This document shows, piece by piece, positions 577-36,815 of a stretch of DNA of 56,476 nt (within the stretch, counting starts at the first letter, position 1; the number at the start of each line of letters is the position of its first letter). The DNA is taken from contig JWZX01002988.1 in assembly GCA_001275005.1 (NCBI GenBank), positions 1-56,476 on the forward strand, read 5' to 3'. The translations under genes and the position numbers were made by a program. The stretch is from Chrysochromulina tobinii (taxonomy: Eukaryota > Haptophyta > Prymnesiales > Chrysochromulinaceae). The notes under the pieces were generated by a model that was not told the origin of the DNA, made no database searches, and saw only the letters and a program-made list of their open reading frames with translations.

Positions 577-3323
577 ATGGCTCGTTGTTTGATCCAGCAC
601 GACCCTTGCCCCTCCGTCCGGATCGTGGCGCATCGTGGACAAATAATCATGTGGAATTTTGGGCGAAACGTCATTTCGAGCGCCGATTCCGAAAAAAGGC
701 CCAGCGCCTGTCGGGTTGCGTTTTGCCGTCGCAGTGCTCAGAAGCGACCCATGAATAACGTTTGGCAGAAGCATTTGACGGGGTGGGGAAAGCGTCACCC
801 AACCGATACCAACCCATTGAAGCCGCCGAGGCCAGTTCAGACGTCATCACCACTCGGGTCATCGTCGGCCAAGGCGGCGGGCAAAATTCCATTGTCTGTC
901 ACCGCACATAGCCCTGTCGTATACGATGCACAGACCGGCCGCCGGCACCTGCCGACGCCGCCGGGCTCGACAGGTGCGCGTACGATGACACCGTCTCGTG
1001 GTGAGTCGGGCTTGACCGCGCAAACGGGCATGGCTATGTCCGTCGTAGGCGATATCAGCACAGCGGGGGCAATTACGCCGCACCAGAAGCAGCGGCAGCA
1101 GCAGCTCGAGGCGCTGCTCTCGCTGCCCTCGCGCTTCGCGCGTGTTGGTGGTGGCTATGAGCGCGTGCCGTACGCTGCGGACGAGCTCCTTAATGCCGCC
1201 GTCGTCGCGGTGACGCGCGAGCGCGGCTACGGCGGCATGACGATCGACGACGACAAGGCCAAGCTGTGCGACGCTCTCGGTTTCGCGATCGCCGAGGCGG
1301 ACGAGCTTCGCGCTGCACTGGGCGAGCAGCCAGTGCTCGAGCAGATGCGCCAGCGCGTCCAACAAGCGCAACTCGACGCGGCGAGGCACGAGGAAGGGAT
1401 CGAGGTGGTGCGACTCGAGGCGACTGCGGCGCGTAAGGCTGCGAGCGAAGTGCAAAGCATCCAGGCCGACCTCGTGCAGGTGCAGCGGCAGCTCGCAAGC
1501 TGGGTGCTAACCGCGGTCGAGCACAGCCGCGCTCAGCGCAAGGCGGCCGACCCCAACTCGTCATCGAAGCCGACGCAGCTGTCCAACACCGCGCCGTCGG
1601 ACTCGGAGCTGCTTGGCGAGACGAGCCCTGGCTCGACCCACGAGGGCCCATTGTCCGTGCAGGCGAGCCCGGGTCCAACGTCCGTGCAGCAGCAGCAGCA
1701 GCAGCAGGCGCAGTACACGGAGAGCCTTCTCGAGTCTCTCGCCTACTTTTATGCGTCGCGCGCGCAGCTGAAGCAGCTGGTGACGGGCATGCGTGCGTGG
1801 CAGGCGTGCGCGGCGCTCCATCGGCGAGATCAGGCGGCGGTGCGCTTTGCCGAGATGCTGATTGTCTCTGATGGCCCTACTGATGATCACCGATGATCAA
1901 TGACTGCTCCCCTCATCAGGTGCGCTTCGCCGAGATGCGCGCGCTCTCGTCGGCGACCATGTCCCTCCAAGCGGCCGCCCAAAATCACGCGCTCGTCGAT
2001 CGTGGCGTGCGTCGCTTTGCGCGCACCCAAGCTCAGCGTGCCTTCCACAATTGGGTTTCGTTTGTGACCAATCGTGCGCTCACGCAGCACACGCAAGTGC
2101 TCGCGGCACAGCACGCGTCCGTGCAGGCGGCGAAACGTGCGGTGGGCAGCTTGAGGGTGAAGCCCCCCCAGGACGACCAGCCCGAGTCGTCGTCTGCTCC
2201 CGAAGAGGAGTTGCCTGTGAATTCACAGTTGAACCACGGCGCGGCTGCAACCTCCTCCGCGCACGTGGCGGCGTGCGCTCCTGCGGCGCGCACACAGCCG
2301 CCCTTTTCGTTCACGGGCAGTGCTCTAGCCTCCTCCCCGAGGGGGGCGAGCTGCTCCACCGCGGGGACCACCGCGGGCATGTCGGAGGATGCCGTTCGAT
2401 GGATGGCAGCGGCGGCGACCGCGGCAGCCGCCCTAGGCGACGTGGTCGCGCAGTTCGGACGTTACACGGGTGGTGACACCGCGCGGTCATCCTCAGATCC
2501 CGACGCGACCCCCGCTCCGCTGAGTGCAACGCAGCGGGCCCAGTTTGATCGCACTTGCGAGCGCGAGATGCCCGAGTGGCTTCGCGCCGCGGCCGATGCC
2601 GCCTCACTCATCAGCGACGCGGCCGAGCGCCTACAGTACGGCTCTTCACACCCCGCTTCACACCCCGCCTCCCGCTCGGGCTCGCGCCCGAGCTCACGTT
2701 GCGCTGCCGAGCCGACGAGCACGCCAAAAGGCCGCATCGCCATCATCAATGAGCGATCCAGTTGGTTCGGCTCCAGCCTCTCTGTCTCTCCCGTGGCGTC
2801 GGGCGACAAGATCTTCTACATGTGTGAACACCTCATGAAGGCCTGCGACAAGATGGGCAACCGGTGCGTGCTCGGCGGTGCCAACATCGCGTGTGGCTTC
2901 CTGCAGCGCGTGCCTGGGCTGTCTGGGGAGCTCTCTGGTGAAGCGGCGGCCGGCTCGGATGCACCGGCAGAGGGCGGCAGCGGCGCGGCTGGCCGCACTG
3001 CCGGCACGTTCGCCGCGCTCGACGCTTCCCACGCGACGGACGCCGGCGCGAGTGGGCAGCAGCACGCGAGCTGGGCTGACTTGGGCGACGGCACCTACCT
3101 GCTCCGATGGGCGGCCGACGCTCCCGGCGTCTTCGATGTCTTCGTCAAGATTGATGGGTTGCATGTGCTTGGCTCTCCCTCGAGGCTAGTGCTCGCGCCG
3201 CCGCTGCCGCCGCCCACGCGCCGAGCACGCCTATCCAGCAATTTAACTTCCGTGGTGGACTCACCTAGCGGCACGAAAGGGTCCGCGGAAACAGCCTCGA
3301 AAGTGGGCGGCACGGACAGCTGA
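577..3323 (+). CDS. coiled-coil/Trp-repeat protein with C-terminal filamin-type Ig-like domain
   Basis: Two exons (577-1839 and 1920-3323) join in phase 0 to give 888 residues. The first 150 residues are low-complexity. About residues 165-300 are Glu/Ala/Gln-rich and predicted coiled coil, followed by a short polyGln. Around the splice junction are helical segments of the type R-x5-AFHNWVSF that resemble the Sfi1-like repeats of the giant protein at 12779. Near residues 800-850 the pattern WADLGDGTYLLRW, then GVFDVFVKIDG and LGSP, matches the end of filamin/ABP280 repeats, which are Ig-like folds for cytoskeletal contacts. A scaffold role is inference. The start is uncertain: in-frame ATGs at 649 and 751 are alternatives, and the N-terminal 58 residues may be 5' UTR. 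Unspliced RNA ends at a TGA just before 1897. Confidence 0.7.
1840..1919 (+). other. intron (80 nt) with duplicated splice junction
   Basis: Donor GCG|GTGCGC and acceptor CATCAG|GTGCGC, phase 0. The first 18 bases of the intron (GTGCGCTTTGCCGAGATG) repeat the first 18 of the next exon with one mismatch. The interior contains CTGATTGTCTCTGATG, 15 of 16 identical to a segment of the intron at 34939-35168. Removing it joins two open frames that are otherwise separated by a stop. Confidence 0.8.
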
Positions 3324-3658: not shown

Positions 3659-6495
3659 CTACGAGCACTGGGCTGCCCCGCCTTGCCCTTGGAGATAGAA
3701 GAAGTCGGGGCGCTCGTGACGCGCTGCCTCGAGCAGCTCGGGTGTCTCGAGCACCCGGAGCGCGTGCCAGCACACCCACGCATCGGTCGCGGCGTAGCGC
3801 AGCTGCGCCTCGCTCAGCGTGGGCATCTCCCAGTTGGACATCTGCAACGACTTGGGCTTGTGCATGCGCAGCCCCAGTAGCGCGGCGACGAAGCCGGCGA
3901 CGCCCGTGCAGAGGCAGCCAGCGGCGCGCGCACTTGGGGCCAGCTCGATGAGCGTTGCGCCGACCGAGGCCGCGCCCACGACGGCGCCCGTGGATGCGCC
4001 CACCACGGCGCCGACCGAGGTGGCGACCGGCGCGTCGGCCGATGCCGCCGGCGTCGCGGTCAATCGCGGTGGCGTGCAGCCCAGCCCACCCGCGCGCACA
4101 TCAGACTCGTGGAGCTGCGCTATCTCGCGCCCGATCTCCTGACCGACCAAGGTGAGTGTCGGGTCGCTGAGTAGCTCACGCAGCGGTGACGGCAGCGGCT
4201 GATGACGAACCAGCCGGAAGAGCACCGCGACCTCCGGCGTAGCGAGCTGAACGAGGCAGATTGGGTTGAGATTCTTCTCTCCGGCCCGGAAGGTCGGCTT
4301 CGTCTCGGTGTCGAAGCCGATCACTACACGCCCGTGGAGCTCGCCGCTACGCCGCAGCGCGGCGCACCACGTCGCCGCAGTCATCCTTTCTTCTTCGGAG
4401 CGCCCAGCGGAAGCTTTCGCAGGCGCCCATGCGCTGCCGTCGACCACAATGATCCTGACCGTGTCCTCATCGGGTGGGGGACGAAGGTGAAGGTCCGCGG
4501 GATGCAGCAGGCGGACAGGAGGGAGGGTCGTCGCGAGCGTCTGGAACTGTTCCGACTTGGCTCCTATCAAGGGCCACCGGCGCTTCTCATAGTCCGCCCA
4601 GCACGCCTCGCAGTAGAGCCGGCCGCTGGCCGGGTCGCGATGGCCTCGCCCCGGGTAGCCACACCACAGGCAGAGCCCATCCTCCACCAAGCAGTCGACT
4701 GACACGCCAACGGCCGCCACGTCGTCGACTGGTGCGGCAGGCCGTCCGTCGGCTGGTGCGGCAGGCCGTCCGGCGGCTGGCGCGGCAGGCCGTCCGTCGG
4801 CTGGCGCGGCAGACTTCTCCACCAGTTTCAAAAGGCCGACCCGATGCACGAGCTCGTCCGCGCTGATCGTCCTCGCCGCCGGAGGAGGAGGAGGGGGTGG
4901 GACCAGCCCCTGCATCGACAGCGCGTCTTCGACTCCGACGGCGTGTAAGGATTGCTCACGCCGCAGCCTGGAGGGGAAGACGCCTGCAGGGAAGCACCCC
5001 TGGAGGCAACACCGGGCAATGTGCTCCAGGGCGCTCAAGGCAGCCCGTGCCTGTATCTGCGCGAATGGGTGCAGATGACGCTCGCGCCATGCACTCGACA
5101 ACAGTTCGGCAAAGGGTACCCACGCGACACCTAGCAGGCTCGGGTCGTTCCCCGGATCTGGCGGCCGGCCGAGAGCAGCAGCCACGCGCTCGGCGAGGTC
5201 GGCGTCCTCGGCGTCGAGCTCATGCAAAAAGAGAGCGTACCTGATGAGGAGGCAATCAGCATGCACTCAGCATGCACTCAGCAGCATGGCATGCACCCAG
5301 CAGCAGCAATTCGACACGCAACCGCATACTTGCTCTGGCCCACCCAGACGACGGGCTTCGCGTGCTGCTCGATGCGCGCCCGAGCGCTCGCAGACAGCTG
5401 CCCGCCTGTCTCCTCCGAGCACTCCCTAGCAGCCACGTGGCGAGGGCTCTCGTGGATGGAGTCACGCTTGCCGCCGAGAAAGTTGTACCTCTTCTCCACG
5501 CGGCTGTTATTGGTACGCTCTTCGATCGCGAGTAGGGCATGGGGGTTGCCGCTCTTCTTGTGCCACAGCAGTGCGCCGGCCGCACAAAAGTGCTTCGCAT
5601 CGAGCTCGCGCAGCTGCCCATCTGCCGCTGTGTACGCATCCGGCGTCACCGCCTTACCCTTCCAGGGCCGCTCCGGTGACGACTGCCCTGGAGGCCGCAG
5701 GTCTGGTCGAGTCGGGTGTTTCAGGTGCTGCCACGTCGTCGGATGCGCAAACGCGCACGAAACGTTCGTGCACGTGTCGCCATTGCGGCAGCGCTTGTCG
5801 CCATACTTGCCGCACTTGACCCACTCAACCAGCGAGGTGGTCGGCAAGGCGCTCTGTCGGTTCGATCCGTTTACGTCGACACGGTCGATCGGGCCACGCG
5901 CAGACGATCGCTCGCTCGCCACCTCGCCCACGTAGCCGTCTGTCGGTCCGAAAGCCAGTGGCGCAATCGCGACGGGGCTCCCCCAGTAGGGGTGTGAGCT
6001 AAAGGGCTCTCCGTACGTGGCCGCCTTGTGTCGCGGCTCGCCGCTAGAGCTCCAGCCAACGTTGCGGCCCACAGGGCCATCAGACACGTGCATGGGCACT
6101 GGCAGTCGCTCCACGACAAACACCTGTGGTGCTACCACGTCGTGCCATTCGACAGGATCTCTAGGATCCGGATTGTACTGAATGCGCATGCGGACGTTAT
6201 GCAGCTTACCGAGGACGCGCATTTGGACCTGGCCACTGAGAACACGCTCACTGTCCTCCACCGGTTTCAGCGCCTGCAGCGCTGCCACACCATATGATGG
6301 CAGTGACGCAAGAAACGCAGCATCGATCAAGAAGCCTTGCAGCGCTGTGCCCATGTCGTTGGAAGCAAACACCTTCCGACCATCGATCTCCACACGCGAC
6401 GGCTTGCAGAGGTTCGGCCCGTACAGCATCTCACGAACGTTCCCACGGCCGGGCCGGTGCGGGGGCACGTTGCCAGGAGCCCCCGAGATCGACAT
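3659..6495 (-). CDS. CCCH zinc finger - Nudix hydrolase - DEDDy 3'-5' exonuclease fusion
   Basis: Two exons (6495-5330 and 5240-3659) join in phase 2 to give 915 residues from ATG 6495, or 954 from ATG 6612. In order: an N-terminal region; a CCCH finger of spacing C-x5-C-x4-C-x3-H ending SCAFAHP; a Nudix box (about 5394-5475) with the REx2EExG core and GX6E in place of GX5E; a Pro/Ala linker with 8-residue repeats; a two-CxxC zinc-type module (LCLWC and YCEAC); and a WRN/RNase D-like exonuclease with Exo I FDTET, an Exo II position where Glu seems to replace Asp, and Exo III YAATD. A Gly/Ala-rich insertion separates Exo II and III. The domains suggest RNA end processing, for example cap or nucleotide hydrolysis coupled to 3' trimming; this is inference. 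The intron cuts the Nudix fold after the Nudix box. It is tail-to-tail with the upstream gene and head-to-head with the gene at 6809. Confidence 0.8.
4729..4814 (-). repeat. 24-bp tandem repeat in the Nudix-exonuclease linker
   Basis: About 3.5 units of a 24-bp repeat encode the octapeptide APADGRPA or APAAGRPA. It is in frame, so unit gain or loss would only change the length of the flexible linker between the Nudix and zinc/exonuclease parts. Confidence 0.7.
5241..5329 (-). other. intron (89 nt) in the Nudix-exonuclease gene
   Basis: On the minus strand the donor is AGCAA|GTATGC and the acceptor CTCATCAG|GTACGC, phase 2, restoring Q-S-K-Y-A-L-F across the Nudix fold. The interior is a run of TGCTGAGTGCA-like units ending in CTGATTGCCTCCTCATCAG. 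The GTAYGC at the donor is repeated at the start of the next exon. Confidence 0.8.
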
Positions 6496-25452: not shown

Positions 25453-28400
25453 CTAAACGTCCTCTTCTTCTAGCCGCAGCAAAAACTCTGTGTATGCATG
25501 GTTGTCGCTGCCAGTTGAGAGCACAAAGATGCTCGGCGTCTGCAACGAATCGACCATGCTCTCATAGAGCACTGCACCTCCGCCAGGCTTCTTGGCAGGC
25601 TGTCTCATGCCCTGCTTGCCAACGCACGACTGACCCACAAGGACACGCACGAGCAGTACCCATTGCGATCCTTCGTTGTCAGGCTTCGCGTACTCCTCAT
25701 TGAGAGAGTATTTCAGTTGATTTGAAAAGTAGGATCCAACGCCATACATTCCCCGCTCGTTCATGTTGCGATCGAAACCGTTAGCCATGATAGACTCCAG
25801 CGTGTCGCGCGAAGTGCCGTGCCAGAGCCAGGCCTCGTTGAGCTGCGCTCTCCCAATGCGTGAGATCAGCGCGTCGCGAGCTGCCTGGTATAGGTTGAAG
25901 CGAGCCTCGCTGCGAATGTGCGAGATTGTGAGCAGGCGCGAACGCAGCTGTGGAGGCATCATGCTCCGAACGAAGTCGCACAGCGCCACGTGCCGCTCGA
26001 TGGGCATTGGCTTGGGCGTGAACATCCCTCCCTTTGGCGTCGAGAGGATCTCACCCAGCACATATGGAGCGTGGCCTATACCCTGTGTGGAAGCTGACCC
26101 AGGAAGCTGGCTTGCGGGGAGAAGTGCTGCCCAGTACGGCGGTGCTTGCCCATAGCTGCCTGGAAAGTGACTCAGGCTCGGCAGGTCCTTGTCCACATCA
26201 GTCAGTGCATGCCTTTTGAGGTTGCGCAAGAAGCCTGTTCGCACATTCTTCTGCGTGCATAGCCTCAGGTCCACATCGTACGCCTGCCCACGGATTTCGA
26301 TTCGGAAGCGCAGGACACCCGACGCCTCTTGGTTTCGGAACGTCTCCTCCGAGGCGGTGTCGAAGAGCTGCCACGCCCCGCTACCAACAGCACCATCCTC
26401 CCACATCCACACGTGCGCTGGCCGAGTTTCAGCCTTGTTCGTATCGTCATCTGCCGCCAGAATCTGCAACGCGCTGGCGGCCTTCGCCTTGCCTAGAGCG
26501 TCGCCGTCACGCACGAGCGCCGCGAGCGGCACGAGGGCGCCCGCCGCTACGATGGCCGCCTTGTTGGCAGCGTCGCCGGCCGCCAGACTCCACAACGCGG
26601 TGGCGGCCTTCGCCTTGCCTTGAGCGTCGCCGTCGCGCACGAGCGCCGCGAGCGGCACGAGGGCGCCCGCCGCTACGATGGCCCCCTTGATGGCAGCGTT
26701 GCGCGCTAGCTTCCACAAGGCCTCTGCGGCTGCAGCCTGCTCCTCAGCGGTGCCATTTCTCAGCATCGCCACCAGCGGCGGGAGGGCGCCGGCCGCGGCG
26801 AGTGCCCCACGCATCGGATCCGTCGACTGATCTGGCGGTGCGTCGGCGAGGATGGCGATGCCACTCGCCACCGGCGTCCGCGCACCGATGGCACACGCTT
26901 GGAACAACGCCACAAGCGCGGCTGGATCCGCGTCGGCCACTGCGCGCTCCACCGCGGCGGCGCTCGGAGAAGGAGCTTTCAAATTGCTAGTTACTGTGGG
27001 CGATCTTGGGGAACCTGCAGCTACCGGCGTGTTGACCACCGCCAGCGTGCTTACCGCTGCCGGCGTGCTGTGTCGAGTGCGTAGCCCATCGGCCAGTGCG
27101 TAACCCATCGGCGGATCCACGGCCCAGCCCATCGGCGGTTGATCCAAGGGCCAACCCATCGGCGGCTGATCCACGGGCCAGGAGCCCATTGGTGGCTGAT
27201 CCACGGGCCAACCCATTGGCGGCTGATCCACGGGCCAGGAGCCCATTGGTGGCTGATCCACGGGCCAACCCATTGGGACCGGAGGAGGCGCCGAGGAGGT
27301 GGAGGTGCCATAACCTGCAGCTGCCAGCGTGTTGACCACTGCCAGCGTGCTTACCACATGTAGTGTCGAGTTGCTACCATAGACAGGGGATAGAGGGGCA
27401 GGCTGAGGTGGCATGGGCTTTGTAGCCGGCGGCGCGGCGGGCGGCTTGGGAGGCGCGGCGGGAAGCTTCTTGGGCGCACTGCCAAAGAGCCCACCGTCAT
27501 CGTCGTCGTCGTCGCCAAAGAGGCCGCCGCCGCCGCCCTTTTTGGCGGCAGGCTTGGGAAGAGGCGGCGTGGGAAGCTTCTTGGGCGCACTGCCAAAGAG
27601 CCCACCGTCATCGTCGTCGTCGTCGCCAAAGAGGCCGCCGCCGCCGCCCTTTTTGGCGGCAGGCTTGGGAAGAGGCGGCGTGGGAAGCTTCTTGGGCGCA
27701 CTGCCAAAGAGCCCACCGTCATCGACGTCGTCGTCGCCAAAGAGGCCGCCGCCGCCGCCCTTTTTGGCGGCAGGCTTGGGAAGAGGCGGCGCGGGCGGCG
27801 CCTTGGCGGCGGCCTTACCCGCCGAGGCGCCAAAAAAGCTGTCGTAGTCGACGACGTTGTCGTTGTCGTCCTCGTCGTTGACGAACACCAGGTTCTGCAA
27901 TGCTCCGGCTGCCTTCGCCTTGCCAGCAGCGTCGCCGTCGCGAGAGAGCGTATACAGCGCCTTGATGCCGCCCGAGGCCCGGATCGCGGCCTTGTTTGCA
28001 TCATCTCCTGCCGACAAACCCCACAACGCGCCGGCTGCACTCGCCTTGCCGTCAGCGTCACCTTCGCGCATGAGCGTCACAAGCGCCTCGATACCGCCCG
28101 CGGCCCGGATCGCGGCCTTGTTCGCATCGTCATCTGCCGCCAGATTCCACAACGCGCCGGCTGCGTTCGCCTTGCCTTCAGCGTCGCCGTCGCGCACGAG
28201 CGTCACGAGCGGCTCGATGCCGTCCGCGGCCCGAATCGCCGCCTTGTTCGCCTCGTCATCTGCCGCCAGATTCTGCAACGCGCCGGCTGCACTCGCCTTG
28301 CCGTCAGCGTCACCTTCGCGCACGAGCGTCACAAGCGCCTCGATCCCGCCCGCGGCCCGGATCGCGGCCTTGTTCGCATCGTCATCTGCCGCCAGATTCC

Positions 28401-31400
28401 CCAACGCGCCGGCTGCGTACGCCTTGCCTTCAGCGTCGCCGTCCCGCACGAGCGCCACGAGCGGTGCGATCCCGCCCGCGGCCCGGATCGCGGCCTTGTT
28501 CGCATCGTCATCTGCCGCCAGAATCTGCAACGCGCCGGCTGCGTTCGCCTTGCCTTCAGCGTCGCCGTCGCGCACGAGCGTCACGAGCGCAACGATACCG
28601 CCCGCGGCCCGGATCGCGGCCTTGTTCACATCGTCATCTGCCGCCAGACCCCACAACGCGCTGGCTGCGTACGCCTTTCCTTTAGCGTCGCCGTCGCGCA
28701 TGAGCGACACGAGCTCGACATGGATGCTGCATCGATGCTGCAACGCGGCGGCTGCCCTCAAGTACATTTGCACGGTGGCGCCGGCAGAAAGGCCGCATTC
28801 CATGAGAGTGAAGCCCTCGTTAAGTGGCTTGCCGGCAAAGGTCAGAAAGAATTTGTCGCATGGAACGCCCGCCTTGCTTGCTGCTGCCGCTCGCAGGGCG
28901 CTGACGTTGTCAGTCGAGCGCATCGCATCCACGGTGAGAGTGCAGCGGTGTCGCACAAAGAGTTGGAAGGGCTGGCTTGAAGGGGCAGGTTGAGTAGGCG
29001 TCGGCATCACGTTGCCGAGGAGCCGGGCATGTGATGGTAAATCATCACCAAAGAGCGACCCCACCTTTGCAGGCTTGCTTGGTGTGATTGCATGCGGCAG
29101 CGTGGCGTCCTCCGCGGGCTCATTGTCGTCGACGGCGGCGGCAGCTGCGGACTTCTTCGAGGGGGGGCGGCGCGCCCGCCAGCCAGCGCCCTTCGCTCGA
29201 GAGAGCTGGGCGGCGAGCAGCGTGTCATCGGCAGTGGGATCGGCTTTGCTGGTCGGCACGGCTGCTGCGCCGCCAGCGGTCATCGAGGCGGCCGTGCCAT
29301 CACCGCTGCTTGACGGCTCATCCTCGGCGGCAGCGGCCTTTGGCCTCCGGGAGGGCGGCGCAGCACTGGGCATCATGAAGTTGAGATTGCCCAGCTTCCC
29401 TTTTAAGGCGGTGACTCTCTTTTTGGGCGCGTCTTCCTCGTCCTCGTTTGCGTCGTTAGCGTCGAGCGCGGGCGCGGGCTTCGGGAGCACGGGCGGCGGC
29501 ACGGGCGGTGGTGCGGACTGTGGCGCGGGCTTAGGGGGCGCGGGCGCGGCCACCGGCTTATCCTCAAACTCGCCGTCATCCTCGTCAACGCTCGGTGGCC
29601 GCGCCCGTCGGTCCTTCATCAAGCCCGCCATCGCCGCCAACGGCCCACCGGCCGCAGCGCCCACAGGCAGCTTTGGCTTTGGCGTTGGCGCCGGCGCCTC
29701 GTCCTCGTCGTCGCCGCCGGACAAGGCGCCCTTGGCTGCGGCTTGTGGCGCGGGCAGCGGTGCGGGCGGTGGCGCAGGCGCGGCGGCCTGCTTGAGTGCC
29801 GCCGCTGGCTTCGCAGGGCCGAACAGTCCGCCATCGCCGCCGTCTTCATCGTCGTCGCCGAACAGGCCGCCGCCGTCGGACATGGGCTTTGTAGCCGACG
29901 GCGTGGCGGGCAGCTTGGGAGGCGCGGCGGGAAGCTTCTTGGGCGCACCGCCAAAGAGCCCACCGTCATCGTCGTCGTCGTCGCCAAAGAGGCCGCCGCC
30001 GCCGCCCTTTTTGGCGGCAGGCTTGGGAAGAGGCGGCGCGGGCGGCGCCTTGGCCGCCGCTTTGGCCGCCGCTTTGGCGGCGGCCTTACCCGCCGAGGCG
30101 CCCAAAATGCCGCCATCATCGGCCACCGGCGTCTCCTCTTCCTCGTCCCAAACTCCAAAGAGAGAGGCATAGTCCACCTTCGTAGGCGGCCCCGAGGGCG
30201 CGGCGGCCGCGGCGGCAGTGGGCCCGGAGCCTGATTTGGAGCCAGGGGAGGCGGCGGCGGCGCCATACTCGCCAAAGAGCCCCCCTGCAAAGAGTGAGTC
30301 CCGCTTGCTACTCGCTCTTTGCAGGGGGTGAGTCAAGTGCGCCGGCAGGAGGTGGAGGCCACCCGCGCCGCGGCCGCCAGAGAAGCCGAAGGGGTCATCA
30401 TCCTCGTCCTCATCCTCGTCGTCGTCCTTGCATTGAGTGTCGGCCGACAGTTTCTCCAACAGGGCGACTGCGTGCGCCTTGGCATCAGCGTCAGAGCTCC
30501 CGTCGCGCACAAGCGCCACAAGCGGCTCGATGCCACGCGCCGCCCGGATCGCCGCCAGGTTGGCAGCACCGCCGTGCGCCAGATTCCACAACGCGGCGGT
30601 TGCGTTCACCTTGCCTTCAGCGTCGCCGTTGCGCACGAGCGCCACTAGCGGTTCGATGCCGCCCGTCGTCGCGATCGTCGCCACGTTGGCAGAGTGGGCG
30701 GCTGCCAGCCTCCACAACGCGCCGGCTGCCTTTGCCTTGCATTCAGTGTCGCCGTCACGGGCAAGCACCACGAGCGCTCCAATTACCACCTCCTGGTTGG
30801 CAGCGTTCCCATCCGCTAGACTCACCAACGCGCCGGCTGCACTCGACTTGCCTTGAGCGTCGCCGTCGCGCACGAGCGCCGCGAGCACTTCGATGCCGCC
30901 CGCTGCTGTGATCCCCGCTTTGTTGGCAGCGTCGAAGGCCGCCAGACTCCACAACGCTGTGGCTGCCTTCGCCTTGCCTTCAGCGTCGCCGCCGCGAGTG
31001 AGCGCTACGAGCGCCTCGACGCCGCCCGCCGCCGCAATCGCCTTCTTGTTGGCAGTGTTGCGCGCTAACTTCCACAACGCCTCTGCGGCTGCAGCCTGCT
31101 CCTCAGCGGTGCCATTTCCCAGCATCGCCACCAGCGGCGGGACGGCTCCGGCCGCGGCGAGTGCCTCACGCATGGGGTCTGCCACTTCCCCTGGCGGTGC
31201 GTTGGCGAGAGTGGCGATGCCACTCGCTGCGCGCGTCCGCACACCGATGGCGCGGGCTTGGAGCAACGCCACCAGCGCCACCGTGTCCGCGTCGGCCACT
31301 GCGCCCACCGCCGCGGCGGCGCTCAGAGGAAGAGCAACGGGCGGCGGTGGCTCGGCTGTCGGTATGATCGGCCACCAGCTCCGCCGGGCGGCGGGGGCGG

Positions 31401-31422
31401 AGTTCCGGGATGAACTCGTCAT
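25453..31422 (-). CDS. armadillo - ubiquitin-like - LF-repeat - WWE - PARP fusion protein
   Basis: A single ORF of 1989 residues. Domains in order: armadillo repeats of 42 residues (about 40-330); acidic LFGDDD/GGLFG repeats with Pro/Ala/Lys linkers (about 430-800); a ubiquitin-like domain (about 820-895, beginning FVRHRCTLTVDAM); a second armadillo block (about 905-1175); three 37-residue LF repeats (about 1195-1318); a Trp/Pro repeat of WPVDQPPMG type (about 1378-1438); a third armadillo block (about 1490-1665); a WWE domain (about 1668-1745, HVWMWEDG to VDLRLCTQKN), which in other proteins binds poly- or iso-ADP-ribose; and a PARP catalytic domain. The catalytic H-Y-E triad is complete: His1868 (LWHGTS), Tyr1898 (GVGSYFS) and Glu1979 (AYTEFLL), which permits polymer formation. 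The role is unknown; an ADP-ribosylating scaffold is inference. It is head-to-head with the gene at 31651. Confidence 0.88.
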   Translation of the reverse strand: MTSSSRNSAPAARRSWWPIIPTAEPPPPVALPLSAAAAVGAVADADTVALVALLQARAIGVRTRAASGIATLANAPPGEVADPMREALAAAGAVPPLVAMLGNGTAEEQAAAAEALWKLARNTANKKAIAAAGGVEALVALTRGGDAEGKAKAATALWSLAAFDAANKAGITAAGGIEVLAALVRDGDAQGKSSAAGALVSLADGNAANQEVVIGALVVLARDGDTECKAKAAGALWRLAAAHSANVATIATTGGIEPLVALVRNGDAEGKVNATAALWNLAHGGAANLAAIRAARGIEPLVALVRDGSSDADAKAHAVALLEKLSADTQCKDDDEDEDEDDDPFGFSGGRGAGGLHLLPAHLTHPLQRASSKRDSLFAGGLFGEYGAAAASPGSKSGSGPTAAAAAAPSGPPTKVDYASLFGVWDEEEETPVADDGGILGASAGKAAAKAAAKAAAKAPPAPPLPKPAAKKGGGGGLFGDDDDDDGGLFGGAPKKLPAAPPKLPATPSATKPMSDGGGLFGDDDEDGGDGGLFGPAKPAAALKQAAAPAPPPAPLPAPQAAAKGALSGGDDEDEAPAPTPKPKLPVGAAAGGPLAAMAGLMKDRRARPPSVDEDDGEFEDKPVAAPAPPKPAPQSAPPPVPPPVLPKPAPALDANDANEDEEDAPKKRVTALKGKLGNLNFMMPSAAPPSRRPKAAAAEDEPSSSGDGTAASMTAGGAAAVPTSKADPTADDTLLAAQLSRAKGAGWRARRPPSKKSAAAAAVDDNEPAEDATLPHAITPSKPAKVGSLFGDDLPSHARLLGNVMPTPTQPAPSSQPFQLFVRHRCTLTVDAMRSTDNVSALRAAAASKAGVPCDKFFLTFAGKPLNEGFTLMECGLSAGATVQMYLRAAAALQHRCSIHVELVSLMRDGDAKGKAYAASALWGLAADDDVNKAAIRAAGGIVALVTLVRDGDAEGKANAAGALQILAADDDANKAAIRAAGGIAPLVALVRDGDAEGKAYAAGALGNLAADDDANKAAIRAAGGIEALVTLVREGDADGKASAAGALQNLAADDEANKAAIRAADGIEPLVTLVRDGDAEGKANAAGALWNLAADDDANKAAIRAAGGIEALVTLMREGDADGKASAAGALWGLSAGDDANKAAIRASGGIKALYTLSRDGDAAGKAKAAGALQNLVFVNDEDDNDNVVDYDSFFGASAGKAAAKAPPAPPLPKPAAKKGGGGGLFGDDDVDDGGLFGSAPKKLPTPPLPKPAAKKGGGGGLFGDDDDDDGGLFGSAPKKLPTPPLPKPAAKKGGGGGLFGDDDDDDGGLFGSAPKKLPAAPPKPPAAPPATKPMPPQPAPLSPVYGSNSTLHVVSTLAVVNTLAAAGYGTSTSSAPPPVPMGWPVDQPPMGSWPVDQPPMGWPVDQPPMGSWPVDQPPMGWPLDQPPMGWAVDPPMGYALADGLRTRHSTPAAVSTLAVVNTPVAAGSPRSPTVTSNLKAPSPSAAAVERAVADADPAALVALFQACAIGARTPVASGIAILADAPPDQSTDPMRGALAAAGALPPLVAMLRNGTAEEQAAAAEALWKLARNAAIKGAIVAAGALVPLAALVRDGDAQGKAKAATALWSLAAGDAANKAAIVAAGALVPLAALVRDGDALGKAKAASALQILAADDDTNKAETRPAHVWMWEDGAVGSGAWQLFDTASEETFRNQEASGVLRFRIEIRGQAYDVDLRLCTQKNVRTGFLRNLKRHALTDVDKDLPSLSHFPGSYGQAPPYWAALLPASQLPGSASTQGIGHAPYVLGEILSTPKGGMFTPKPMPIERHVALCDFVRSMMPPQLRSRLLTISHIRSEARFNLYQAARDALISRIGRAQLNEAWLWHGTSRDTLESIMANGFDRNMNERGMYGVGSYFSNQLKYSLNEEYAKPDNEGSQWVLLVRVLVGQSCVGKQGMRQPAKKPGGGAVLYESMVDSLQTPSIFVLSTGSDNHAYTEFLLRLEEEDV
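27114..27280 (-). repeat. Trp/Pro tandem repeat (WPVDQPPMG)
   Basis: About six alternating units of 27-33 bp encode GWPVDQPPM and GSWPVDQPPM. Several copies are identical at the DNA level, so the array is recent and likely length-polymorphic. Confidence 0.75.
27460..27795 (-). repeat. three 111-bp LF repeats
   Basis: Near-identical 111-bp units begin at about 27471, 27582 and 27693; a related copy lies at 29925-30035. Each encodes a 37-residue block with KKGGGGGLFGDDDDDDGGLF and a KLP linker. Two Leu-Phe pairs flanking an acidic run resemble the LFa motif of WASH-complex FAM21, which binds retromer; the functional analogy is inference. Confidence 0.75.
30281..30328. repeat. 19-bp inverted repeat inside the PARP-fusion ORF
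   Basis: The arms at 30281-30299 and 30310-30328 pair at 18 of 19 positions around a 10-nt loop. It lies in coding sequence (S-L-F-A-G-G-L-F region). On the minus strand the distal arm ends CTCTTTGCAG, an acceptor-like sequence, but no convincing donor is present. Confidence 0.6.
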
Positions 31423-31650: not shown

Positions 31651-33139
31651 ATGTCCGAGACTTCTCGCGTCGTCTGTGTCGGTGAACTTGCACGATCCGA
31701 GTTGGACGGCAAAGATCACCCGGACGACGAGCATGACTCACCTGCAGGCTCTGCACATGGCGCATGGCTGCGGAGTGCCGACCGTCACTTTCCTTCTGCT
31801 CGAGCATGGGACAATGCCTTGAGTGCGTCACTTTGCACGGCACTGGAGTCAGATGCTCGAATGATCAACGCCTCTCCCCAGTTGCCATCGACATTCTGGG
31901 TCGACGCAGCCAACATGGCGACACCTAGTTGTTCGCTCGAGCGCTTCGCATGCAACGTCCTCCAATTCCACACAACAGGCGGTGGCGTGCATGAATCAAC
32001 CGGCACGGTTACACCCGAAGATGGGTCCGCGATTCGCGGGGTGGAGTGGTGGGTCCAAGTACGCAGCAGCGAATCACCCAAGCCGTCCATCAACCTTCAT
32101 TTTGATGCCGATGAGGCCACGAAGAGACAGACTTGCGAGCATCTGCCGCCCTTTTTGTCGACGGTCACGTACCTAGGCTCGCACGGAGGGCCGACGGTCT
32201 TGCTTCCTGCCGTTGGTGATGCCCACGGGCGCGCCCTGCCCCCGATAAGCGACCATGGCGCGTTTATCAGCCACCCGGTGAGGCTGCAGCAGACTCAATC
32301 TCGGGCTCAATCTCGGGCCGCCAGGGCCTTCCAAATTCGGTCCCGAGCTCTCGCATGCACTCTCGCTGACGCTAGTGTGTTGCCGTGCGACGCGACGCGC
32401 GCGCGCGCGTTCGCAGATCGCCGGAAGGCACCTTGCCTTCGACGGCCGCCTCCTCCATGGCGCTCTGCACGACCTCGCCCTCCCCTCTCCCTTGCCGTAC
32501 ATTCGAGTGTCGGTACTGGTCAACATTTGGCATCGCCATCGCCCACTCGGTGTGTTTCGTCTACCAGCAGGCTTTGCCGCAGGGCTGTCCAATTCGCCTG
32601 ATGGGCTGTCCAATTCGCCTGATGGGCTGTCCAATTCGCCTGATGGGCTGTCCAATTCGCCTGATGGGCTGTCCAATTCGCCTGATGGGCTGTCCAATTC
32701 GCCTGATGGGCTGTCCAATTCGCCTGATGCGCTCGCCCCCCTCATCGGAGCGTCCCACGACGAGACGATCGTCACATGGGCACCCGTCCTTGCGGTCAGT
32801 GCCGGGCGCACCGAAGGCGATGGACATGGCGATGGAGCTTCCGAGGCTGACTGGATGTCGTGCCGTGTCGGCTATCTGCCTCTGACCCCAGCCATCGGGG
32901 CGGTGCCGGGCTGGCGGGAGCTCGCGACGAAACACGGGCTCGACATCGGCTTTCCTTTCCGCCACTTGCCAGTCCGCGTGCGCCATCTGCAGCACTCTAC
33001 AGGTATCCAGCGAAGCAGCCATATTCCGTTCCGGTACATGCGGGAGGTAGAGCTGGAGTGCGATCTGTGGTCGGACGGAGAGAGCAGCCAGCGCAAGGAC
33101 TGGTGGGCCATCGCCGTCTTTTTGGCGGAGCTCGGGTAA
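31651..33139 (+). CDS. putative 2OG-Fe(II)-type oxygenase with in-frame minisatellite
   Basis: Two exons (31651-32277 and 32417-33139), phase 0, 449 residues. The double-stranded beta-helix iron site appears as His150-x-Asp152 in INLHFDADE and His223 in GRLLHGALHD. GGPTVLLP and AGRHLAFDG lie between, as in algal prolyl-4-hydroxylase-like/2OG proteins. The first exon supplies HxD and the second the distal His, which supports the splice. After LPAGFAAG the protein runs through seven copies of GLSNSPD, then a further 135 residues with acidic and basic patches. The substrate is unknown. ATG 31651 is used; the N-terminal 60 residues are less certain. Confidence 0.7.
32278..32416 (+). other. intron (139 nt) in the 2OG oxygenase gene
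   Basis: Donor CACCCG|GTGAGG, acceptor TTCGCAG|ATCGCC, phase 0. It joins ISHP to IAGRHLAFDG. A short direct repeat CTCAATCTCGGG lies near the donor and a GCGCGCGCG run precedes the acceptor. Unlike most introns here, the acceptor is not followed by GT and no junction duplication is seen. Confidence 0.75.
32582..32728 (+). repeat. 21-bp minisatellite, seven perfect copies
   Basis: Seven identical 21-bp units (GGGCTGTCC, then AATTCGCCTGAT) run without a mismatch and are in frame, each encoding GLSNSPD. Perfect identity implies recent expansion; unit number is probably polymorphic. It sits in a loop after the 2OG core. Confidence 0.95.
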
Positions 33140-33909: not shown

Positions 33910-36815
33910 TCACCATGGCAACCACATTGGTGACGCGGGGGGACTTTCTTCGTGGACAGGACTAACAAGCAGCACGAGCGAGACGCAGGAGACGCTCAGC
34001 CAGATCATGAGCGCGCACCGGATGATGTGCCAGTCGAGGCTCTCGAAGTAGATCTGCACCCGGCTGGGCGGCGGCATGGTCTGCAGATCCGAGAAGGCGG
34101 CGGTGTTGCGCAAACGCGCTTCGAAGCTGGGCACCACCTCCTTGCGCGACGGCTCAAGCTTCTTGAAATAGCACTTGAGCTCGTCGAGCGAGATGGAATT
34201 CGAGTTATCAGTGTCGATCAGGCGGAAGAGCTCGTCGCCCTCCATCTTGAACTCCGGCCACAGCTCGCACAGCTCGGGATGTTGTGTGATGGCGCTGGTG
34301 AGCTCCTCCTTGGTCACCGTTTGGTCACCGTCGACATCGGCGAGTTTGAAGAGGGTCTCGGCGAGCCGTTCGGTCGAGAAGAGGTCGTCGGTCCTGGACG
34401 TATGTTCGTCCAAGTAGTTTCGGTCACCAGAGAGGAGGCAGCAAGTGCGAGTGGGAGTGGCCGGCTGGGACTGTCCCAGCCGAGGCCTGCCGCCCCCTGC
34501 CATCAACTGCTCCTGCCGATACGACGCGCCGCCCGGCCGCATGCGTTTGTCGAGCTCGTTTCGCGAAATCATCTGATATTTGACCACGAGACCTTGGCAT
34601 GAGCACATGAGCACCTCCTCCGCCTCCCCTCGGGTGCCCGCTGTGAGGATCGCCTTCGAAAAGTAGCGCTCGGCCGACGCAGACGGCGTACCGCCGGGAC
34701 TGGCGGAGGCAGTGGGGACGCTGGTCGCGGGTTCGATGAGGCCGATCGGGTCGAACCCGCGCCCAGCAATGCCTCCACCGGGTAAGCGTGACGGATCACT
34801 GGAAGCGCGGCGAGGAGAAGTGGACGATCGCGGCGACAGCGACGGCTGAGAGCGCGACGAGACGGCATATGCGATGCGCCTGTCCCCATCCTCGAGGCAG
34901 CCCGAGACGGCGGTAGACCCATCCGAGAACAGACGCACCTGCGAGGCAATCAGAGGTCATCAGAGGCAATCAGAGCTCATCAGAGGCACTCAGGGCTCAT
35001 CAGAGGTCATCAGACGCACCTGCGAGGCAATCAGAGGTCATCATCAGACGCACCTGCGAGGCAATCAGAGGTCATCTGAGGTCATCAGAGGGTCATCAGC
35101 GGGTCATCAGAGGGTCATCAGAGGTCATCAGACGTACCTCAGAGGTCATCAGAGGTCATCAGACGTACCTCCGAGGCAGCTTTGCCGCGGTTGTCCTCGG
35201 CCTTCATGTCTGAGTAGCTCGTGTCGCACATGATGATATCCACACGCGGCCCGGTGCCCGCGGCCGCCGCCGCCGACTGGATCACCGTTGGGCAGTTGCC
35301 GTGCGGAGTGTGGCCGACGACGAGCCGGCAGATGCCGTTGGCGGCGAGCTTGGCCTCGAGGGCCGGCGGCAGCGGCGCGGGCATGCCGCTGTCGTCGAGG
35401 TGGCGGCCGAGTACGACAGAGGGCAGAGTATTGGGCACACAGTAATCCATGAGCCCATGACCTCCGCGCCGATTTTCCTCATACGCGCTCGCATAGCTCG
35501 TCTGATCTCGCCTGATCTCCCACTCCGGGCGCGCCTCCCACTCCGCGATCTGCTCGGTCTTCCACCGATGCAACTGGCGCACCCACATGCGCACGTCTTC
35601 GTACTGCCGGTTCGGTGGCACGAAGCCGAAGCATTCCTTGTGGCCGTCGCGGTAGTTGCCCTGGAGGCCGCCATGGACGAACAGGGTGTCCCCGAGGACG
35701 ACAGCGAGCTCCCCGAGACGCACCTGATGTGGGAGGCAATCACGTGTCATCATGTGTCATCATCAGCCGGATGGACGAGAGTGAGCTCCCCGAGACGCAC
35801 CAGCTCGCGCATCACGCCGCCTCGGGCGACGCTGTCGACGAAAGAGCTCACGACGGCGCTTTCGCTCACCTGGAGGGGTTGGGTGGGTGTGAATTGGAGG
35901 GGTTGGGTGGGTGGGTAAGGGCGAACACACGGCTGTGAATGGCGTCTCTCGGCATTCTCCCACGTGCGTGTTTGGCACGCCCAGTACCAGGCGCACCTTT
36001 GACACGTCGATCTTGTGGATGACGGACAACTCGGCACGTCGCCGCTCAAACTCGCCGTCGGCGCCCATGGTCTCCTTGAGCATCCAGCGCACCCGTGCCG
36101 CGGGCGTGTTCGCCACGCGGAGCGCCGCCTCGTCCACCTCCTCCGGCTGGATCCCGCGCGATTTGGCGATCGTCGCGCGTAGGAAGCCCTCCGGGCTCAC
36201 CCTCTTCGCCGGCGCTACCCAATACGGCCCGGGCACGCCGTGCAGCTCGGCGAGCTGCGAGGGCGCGAGCTCGGAGGTGAAGCGCATCTTGTTGATGTCG
36301 CGGTTACCCAGGATGATGTGCACGGCGGACGGGTACTTTTTCTTGAGCCGCACCAGTGTTGTCGCCACGCGGATCGAACCACCGACCTTGCCGCCCTTGT
36401 CCACCGAGTCGCCGCCGAAGACAAAGTGCCAGCCCGGCTGCAGCTTTATGTCGGCGCTGCCGTCTTCGTGGAGTGACAGCAGTTCAAGCACTGGGCTCAT
36501 TTCGATGCACTTGATAAAATACTCCCAGTTTCCCTCGACGTCGGTCATGAAGGCGACGTTCGGCATGTTCGTCATCAGAACTTTCTTGCGGTGATGACAA
36601 ACGTAGTAGGCGAGCGCGAGCAAGAACCCGAAGACCACGCTGCACACGCACGCCACTGGGTCGTTCCCTGCGGAGGCAACGAACGCCTCCACACCGGGCA
36701 TGGTTCTCGCAAGAAGCGAGCGACCTTCGACAAGCGTGCCCAGTTCGGGATAGTTTGAAACTCGAGAAATGGAATCGCGGGTCCCACGACACGAAACTTT
36801 CGCAGAGAGTCCCAT
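33910..36815 (-). CDS. membrane calcineurin-like metallophosphoesterase with EF-hand pair
   Basis: Four exons (36815-35964, 35869-35801, 35723-35169, 34938-33910), all phase 0, 834 residues. An N-terminal transmembrane helix lies at about 55-73 (VACVCSVVFGFLLALAYYV). Metallophosphoesterase motifs are: TDVEGN (about 91-96, the DxH position read as D-V-E), GGDSVDKGG (134-142), GNRD (170-173, in place of GNHE), LFVHGG and VVGHTPHGN in exon 3. Exon 4 carries two EF-hand loops, DVDGDQTVTKEE (693-704) and DTDNSNSISLDE (734-745), and ends with a second membrane helix (about 797-817). Metal-dependent phosphatase activity controlled by calcium is a reasonable inference. The EF-hands are fused, as in RdgC/PPEF enzymes, but the catalytic motifs are not PPP-type. 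ATG 36815 is used; ATG 36698 (start of MPGVEAF) is an alternative. Confidence 0.85.
34939..35168 (-). other. intron (230 nt) built of four AG|GT-bounded units
   Basis: Minus strand: donor CGGAG|GTACGTCTG, acceptor CCTCGCAG|GTGCGTCTG, phase 0. Inside are three further AG|GT junctions with the same donor-like GTRCGTCTG (first bases at 35137, 35053 and 35019). They cut the intron into units of 31, 84, 34 and 81 nt. The filling is about 20 copies of CTGATGACCT and CTGATTGCCTC. Retaining the first unit introduces a stop. The outer splice restores KAASE|VRLFSDGST, as the phosphoesterase fold expects. Confidence 0.85.
35724..35800 (-). other. intron (77 nt) with 28-base junction duplication
   Basis: Minus strand: donor GAGCTG|GTGCGT, acceptor CACATCAG|GTGCGT, phase 0. 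The first 28 bases of the intron match the first 28 of the next exon at 26 positions. The remainder carries GATGATGACA, TGATGACACG and TGATTGCCTCCCACATCAG. Confidence 0.9.
35870..35963 (-). other. intron (94 nt), first in the metallophosphoesterase gene
   Basis: Minus strand: donor ACGCAC|GTGGGA, acceptor CCTCCAG|GTGAGC, phase 0, joining GVPNTH to VSESAVVSSF. The interior has two copies of CACCCACCCAACCCCTCCA. The GTGGGAGAATGC at the donor loosely resembles GTGAGCGAAAGC at the exon start. Confidence 0.75.

Follow-up and report, generated by a model that had tools for sequence, protein, structure and literature searches.

A concatemer intron with serial AG|GT junctions in Chrysochromulina tobinii, a probable member of a large introner-like family

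The intron at positions 34939-35168 on the minus strand of a Chrysochromulina tobinii contig is, at a probability of roughly 0.78, a divergent and tandemly duplicated member of a large introner-like family. It is built of four head-to-tail mini-introns of 31, 84, 34 and 81 nt, 230 nt in total, and the best reading of the ratchet-like junctions between them is that they arose incidentally when sequence spanning splice junctions was duplicated in tandem. The window analyzed here is the whole 56,476-nt stretch of JWZX01002988.1, one contig of a 53,154,812-base assembly in 2,253 contigs. The features on which the argument relies are as follows.

35724..35800, minus strand: next intron upstream in the focal gene, of the same family; 28 nt repeating the start of exon 3 (35773-35800, score 22), then TGATGAC filler, then GATTGCCTCCCACATCAG
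35169..35723, minus strand: metallophosphatase gene, exon 3; limits deduced from protein homology and the splice sites
35138..35168, minus strand: unit 1, 31 nt, GTACGTCTG...CTGAG; first donor of the intron; in the 31-nt tandem period at 35113-35176
35054..35137, minus strand: unit 2, 84 nt, GTACGTCTG...GCCTCGCAG; GTAC and first 25 nt in common with unit 1
35020..35053, minus strand: unit 3, 34 nt, GTGCGTCTG...GCCTCGCAG; within an exact 34-nt tandem repeat
34939..35019, minus strand: unit 4, 81 nt, GTGCGTCTG...GCCTCGCAG; last acceptor of the intron
34930..34938, minus strand: start of exon 4, GTGCGTCTG, the exon copy of the unit starts
33910..34938, minus strand: exon 4 open frame, 342 codons including the first GTG; EF hands (Pfam)
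1840..1919, plus strand: another member of the family; 19 nt copied from the next exon (score 16), then filler ending in CCCCTCATCAG

The sequence-only reading had proposed four units of these lengths, each running from GTRCGTCTG to AG, and both the coordinates and the motif counts in the window bear it out. Every unit begins with GTACGTCTG or GTGCGTCTG and finishes with AG, and the three internal junctions all read AG|GTRCGT, an acceptor followed directly by a donor. The string AGGTRCGTCTG occurs five times in the window, each time at this intron (four unit starts and the start of exon 4), compared with a mean of 0.09 in 100 dinucleotide shuffles of the window, none of which reached five. All nine copies of CTGATGACC in the window, where 0.53 would be expected, also fall within the intron, whose 230 nt hold four exact copies of CTGATTGCCTC and 16 CTGAY motifs as well. 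The earlier figure of about 20 filler copies is right when near-copies are counted and too high for exact copies (nine of the first sequence and four of the second). Tandem Repeats Finder reports a 10-nt period at 34949-35163 (69% matches), an exact 34-nt period at 35007-35076 and a 31-nt period at 35113-35176 (96% matches); the last runs 8 nt into exon 3, where the filler resembles the exon, and is therefore not relied on. Units 1 and 2, which share GTAC, look like a duplication of the 5′ end of the intron, and units 3 and 4, which share the GTGC start with exon 4, look like a duplication across its 3′ end. The exon copy of this intron is the 9-nt GTGCGTCTG, scoring 9 against a threshold of 10, and part of it could be splice consensus or filler. 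The 3′ end reads GATTGCCTCGCAG, compared with CCCTCATCAG in the family. Two RNA candidates were rejected: folded alone, the intron has no unusual stability (z -0.52), which speaks against a structured RNA, and a box C/D snoRNA array, suggested by the resemblance of TGATGA and CTGA to boxes C and D, gave four Rfam C/D matches of 17-21 bits where the gathering values are 36-54.

The product of the host gene is metallophosphatase-like with EF hands. A search with this product after splicing returned 41 relatives with E <= 0.001, including one annotated as a calcineurin-like phosphoesterase. The product aligns without gaps to homologues across ASE|VRLFSDG; a phosphatase that continues gap-free through this junction supports excision of the whole 230 nt. 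Stops inside the array rule it out as a coding repeat. There are 15 ways to keep at least one unit; keeping unit 3 alone shifts the frame and the other 14 introduce stops, so the protein comes only from complete removal. In the FtsZ gene (contig C107), with units of 42, 70 and 70 nt, all seven partial products contain stops, and removal of the whole concatemer gives a product that is gap-free against solved bacterial FtsZ chains through the junction. A UGGT gene with 107 nt removed is likewise gap-free against a solved chain through the junction; read as two introns, it gains an in-frame duplicate of nine residues that the aligned solved chain lacks. The concatemer at this locus (L013 on contig C66, 1412-1519) encloses a 27-nt copy of the preceding exon, which would form an in-frame exon, DVPNYLQGM, if two introns were excised separately. 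For the focal gene, the mature mRNA most likely reflects net removal of the whole 230 nt, whatever the order of steps. A metagenomic relative, P0002, ends exactly at ...NRGLAASEIRL, the site of the focal intron, a possible sign that another species has an intron there too. Another gene in the window (25453-31422, minus strand) encodes a single-frame protein of 1989 aa with ubiquitin, armadillo repeat, WWE and PARP domains.

These products bear on recursive splicing, in which the concatemer would be removed unit by unit, each internal AG|GT acting as an acceptor and then as a regenerated donor. The AG|GTRCGT at every internal junction of the focal intron speaks for this explanation, which we nonetheless consider unlikely. 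The stops in 14 of the 15 focal partial products, the frame shift in the other and the stops in all seven FtsZ partial products count against it, as does the shortness of the 31- and 34-nt units. Known ratchet points lie in long animal introns, and a 230-nt host is out of keeping with them, although such length is usual rather than logically required. The same architecture also arises from duplication without function.

The case for a family rests on the rest of the assembly, in which a DNA search with the focal array yielded 65 scored places, these being the best candidates. Exact matches to TGATTGCNTCCCTCATCAG, the 19-mer of the family 3′ end, number 1,170; a longer form of this end, followed by GTGC, occurs 264 times and CCCTCATCAGGTRC 981 times; each control, reversed in the case of the 19-mer, gave 0. 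A fixed cassette of about 20 nt forms the 3′ splice region of the members; it consists of a CTGAT branch-point-like motif, a C/T-rich stretch and CATCAG, with CTGAT repeats of 10 nt and variable overall length upstream of it. The final 20 nt have a high information content (the search patterns partly fix positions -19 to -1); further upstream it shows the 10-nt CTGAT periodicity and falls to about 0 by -60. The 10-nt spacing was counted in 233 of 457 cases in family stretches versus 50 of 114 in downstream control stretches, where the high value is probably due to neighboring introns. Open reading frames beside members matched Pfam in 13 of 20 cases on the same strand and in 0 of 10 on the opposite strand, the bias expected of introns. 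These ORFs were the 20 of 28 same-strand and 10 of 28 opposite-strand ones of at least 250 aa, several being one ORF in overlapping loci, and the 13 matches include one below the family cut-off and three from one UGGT gene. The domains include FtsZ, PNGase A, flippase, helicase, asparaginase, Kelch, UGGT and others. The family introns thus sit in sense orientation in unrelated genes and, as introners do, place similar introns at unrelated positions. Their similarity does not reach both splice boundaries: the 5′ part, an exon copy, differs from locus to locus, and only the 3′ end stays constant. Two further places in the window deserve mention. At 5241 (minus strand), a family 3′ end reads GATTGCCTCCTCATCAG|GTACGC, and the sequence upstream of it has no recognizable exon copy. 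At 32582-32733, 7.2 near-identical 21-nt units, GCGAATTGGACAGCCCATCAG on the minus strand and each ending in CATCAG, recall the 21-nt cassette arrays of locus L089. The assembly also includes a plastid-like contig, C2186 (loci L039/L040, 67,807 bases), with a red-type rbcL that is 94% identical to metagenomic proteins, its best matches, and 88% identical to red algae.

The second mark of the family lies at the other end of the intron. An unselected set was formed from 28 of 30 places, one place near a contig end and one duplicate being excluded. Of these 28 introns, 13 open with sequence copied from the next exon (score at least 10), a target site duplication of variable length, and the other 15 have no recognizable copy. 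The same measure succeeded for 2 of 140 swapped exon starts and for 4 of 28 stretches taken 50 nt further on. Over all 106 anchors, a partly selected set, the figures are 69 of 106, compared with 37 of 530 for swapped and 21 of 106 for shifted controls. Copies shorter than 45 nt have a median length of 27 nt (12-44, n=52); 14 of the 66 good copies are at least 45 nt long and were omitted from the length quartiles, since in concatemers they run into filler. The median distance from copy to acceptor is 78 nt, the printed alignments being those with distances of at most 170 nt. In a typical layout, ATG|GTGCGCCTCAAGATGCTGCG... is followed by filler and then by CATCAG|GTGCGCCTCAAGATGCTGCG..., and the window offers two good cases besides the focal intron (1840-1919 and 35724-35800). 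An intron that opens with copied exon takes its GT donor from that copy. By a stricter measure, a GT-starting copy stands at the first donor in 15 of the 68 clusters with a single acceptor and in 21 of the 81 with several. Open-frame continuity gave no signal among 22 members: 9 were open when spliced, 7 and 8 when shifted by 1 or 2 bases and 1 when retained, 14 further members having been dropped as too short.

These observations also weigh on a different explanation, namely that a CTGAT minisatellite expanded within old introns and that no intron was gained. It would account for the 10-nt periodic filling and for the lack of an exon copy in 15 of the 28 unselected members. It does not sit well with 1,170 occurrences of one fixed 20-nt 3′ end or with exon-specific copies at intron starts far above the swapped control. 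A diverged paralogue of the focal gene on contig C1616 is a third point against it, since this gene is uninterrupted at the two sites of family introns in the focal gene (DNRGTAVSTLDVMKDG and FMREYIKLGQLAEV), with one frame change inside exon 3. We therefore regard colonization of old introns as highly unlikely. The search of the assembly for an allelic copy of the focal gene returned this diverged paralogue and no allele. The missing introns are consistent with gain in the focal gene, and loss in the paralogue could explain them too.

Concatemer introns with internal AG|GT junctions are common in this genome. Two acceptors 42-72 nt apart, the second followed by GT, occur 274 times in the assembly and a stricter concatemer pattern 11 times, with 0 in either control. 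The first 100 listed matches of the GTGC-followed form fall into 79 clusters. Of these, 16 contain several acceptors, where chance would yield about 0.1 pair. We compiled 149 clusters: 68 single, 57 double, 17 triple and 7 with four to seven acceptors. Unselected loci are mixed in this collection with loci picked as multiple, and the 81 multiple clusters therefore give no frequency. Unit spacing is mostly 65-80 nt. Sequence matching the exon start occupies the 20 nt after 65 internal junctions, and in 57 of these it begins with GT. Judged by this match, the internal junctions of many members are copies of the boundary between acceptor and exon. Such numbers make it extremely improbable that the assembler multiplied or misjoined repeat units. 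An exact 34-nt repeat in an assembly broken into 2,253 contigs leaves room for error in the copy number of exact repeats; against an artefact stand the 274 double acceptors, units that differ from one another and exon-specific unit starts at many loci.

The same junctions give recursive splicing a little more to draw on. Compared with the terminal junction, the 65 internal ones show 0 changes at the first two bases, where about 3 would be expected, and at the later 14 positions 22 of 910 cells differ (2.4% divergence). This favors recursion weakly, for the junctions are non-independent and the search patterns behind many of the loci prescribe AG or the terminal GT. A spacing of 65-80 nt is a workable intron length and also favors it. 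What stands of the proposal in the sequence-only reading is that the concatemer with its AG|GT junctions is real and recurs genome-wide; use of the junctions is neither supported nor refuted by the present data.

We return to the reading of the focal intron as a duplicated family member and to how such introns might form. Spread of the cassette would involve copying into new sites, with a long target duplication of variable length left behind; target-primed reverse transcription of the 3′ part of an intron RNA and templated break repair are candidate routes. Later tandem duplications across the splice junction would lengthen the intron and create the AG|GT points. For the focal intron, the simplest history would be that one ancestral unit underwent a duplication of its 5′ end and duplications across the 3′ junction. 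An origin by duplication accounts for the AG|GT junctions without any function. We identified no autonomous mobile element for the family. Reverse transcriptases were considered as a sign of the source and set aside: the 26 matches, 22 of them above the cut-off, are not specific and show only that such enzymes exist. A bolder proposal is that a cassette of about 20 nt, holding a branch site and a 3′ splice site only, spreads, acquires its donor through a long duplication at the target exon and multiplies into concatemers of up to seven acceptors, with hundreds of serial AG|GT junctions, some of them spliced recursively. This would be an undescribed route of intron birth and growth; taken as a whole, we think it unlikely.

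How introns originate is an old open question. In this compact genome, exon-start copies, a shared 3′ cassette and a paralogue lacking the two family introns coexist, and together they make target duplication, donor recruitment and later growth directly readable. The concatemers are also natural test pieces for how the spliceosome chooses among identical, closely spaced donors and acceptors.

Several described systems share part of this picture. The introner survey of Gozashti et al. 2022 (PMC9860276), in the portion of its text available to us, describes families that carry a 3′ splice site and obtain the 5′ site from a target duplication. The present family is similar in that many alike introns lie at unrelated positions, with an element-borne 3′ splice site and a donor from duplication. 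In contrast to the 3-9 bp quoted for target duplications in that portion, those found here are often 20-35 nt and variable, the 3′ end alone is fixed and the filling is low-complexity. The tandem concatemers are a further difference, the word "tandem" having 0 occurrences in the same portion (PMC9860276). Since low-complexity families are reported there as filtered out of the survey, the contribution of such elements may be underestimated.

Exon sequence stands at both ends of the intron in many family members, 28 nt of it in the intron at 35724-35800 and 9 nt in the focal intron. In the intron gain in potato RdRp, the splice sites reportedly came from copied exon sequence, with the intron lying between the two copies. 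The accessible part of PMC4974935 presents that case as a gain by tandem duplication with internal AGGT, and in many members of the present family, too, exon copies flank the intron and supply splice sites. Unlike the potato case as given in that part (PMC4974935), a shared non-exonic cassette lies between the copies here and recurs genome-wide. Direct repeats at intron borders are likewise a point in common with Rogers and Bendich 2025 (PMC11782384), whose available passages report repeats of 4-30 bp at or near intron-exon borders and read them as insertion marks. Those passages concern 213 introns from many taxa, whereas one family in one genome is at issue here, with a common 3′ end and longer copies.

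Ratchet points juxtapose acceptor and donor at zero-length exons in the same manner, and the sections available of PMC8605326 and PMC6110457 place them in long introns and show them in RNA; in contrast, the introns here are a few hundred nt long, have serial junctions by duplication and are known from sequence alone. The Hypoxylaceae stwintrons are also complex intervening sequences that multiply within a genome. As defined in the extract available of PMC8469720, however, the internal intron of a stwintron splits a splice element of the outer one, whereas the focal units keep intact GT and AG and so fall outside that class. Among the open-licence literature matches listed, we recognized no equivalent of concatemer or zero-length-exon introns in compact genomes. 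The family joins features of introners, of border repeats and of tandem duplication, and it adds serial concatemers to them.
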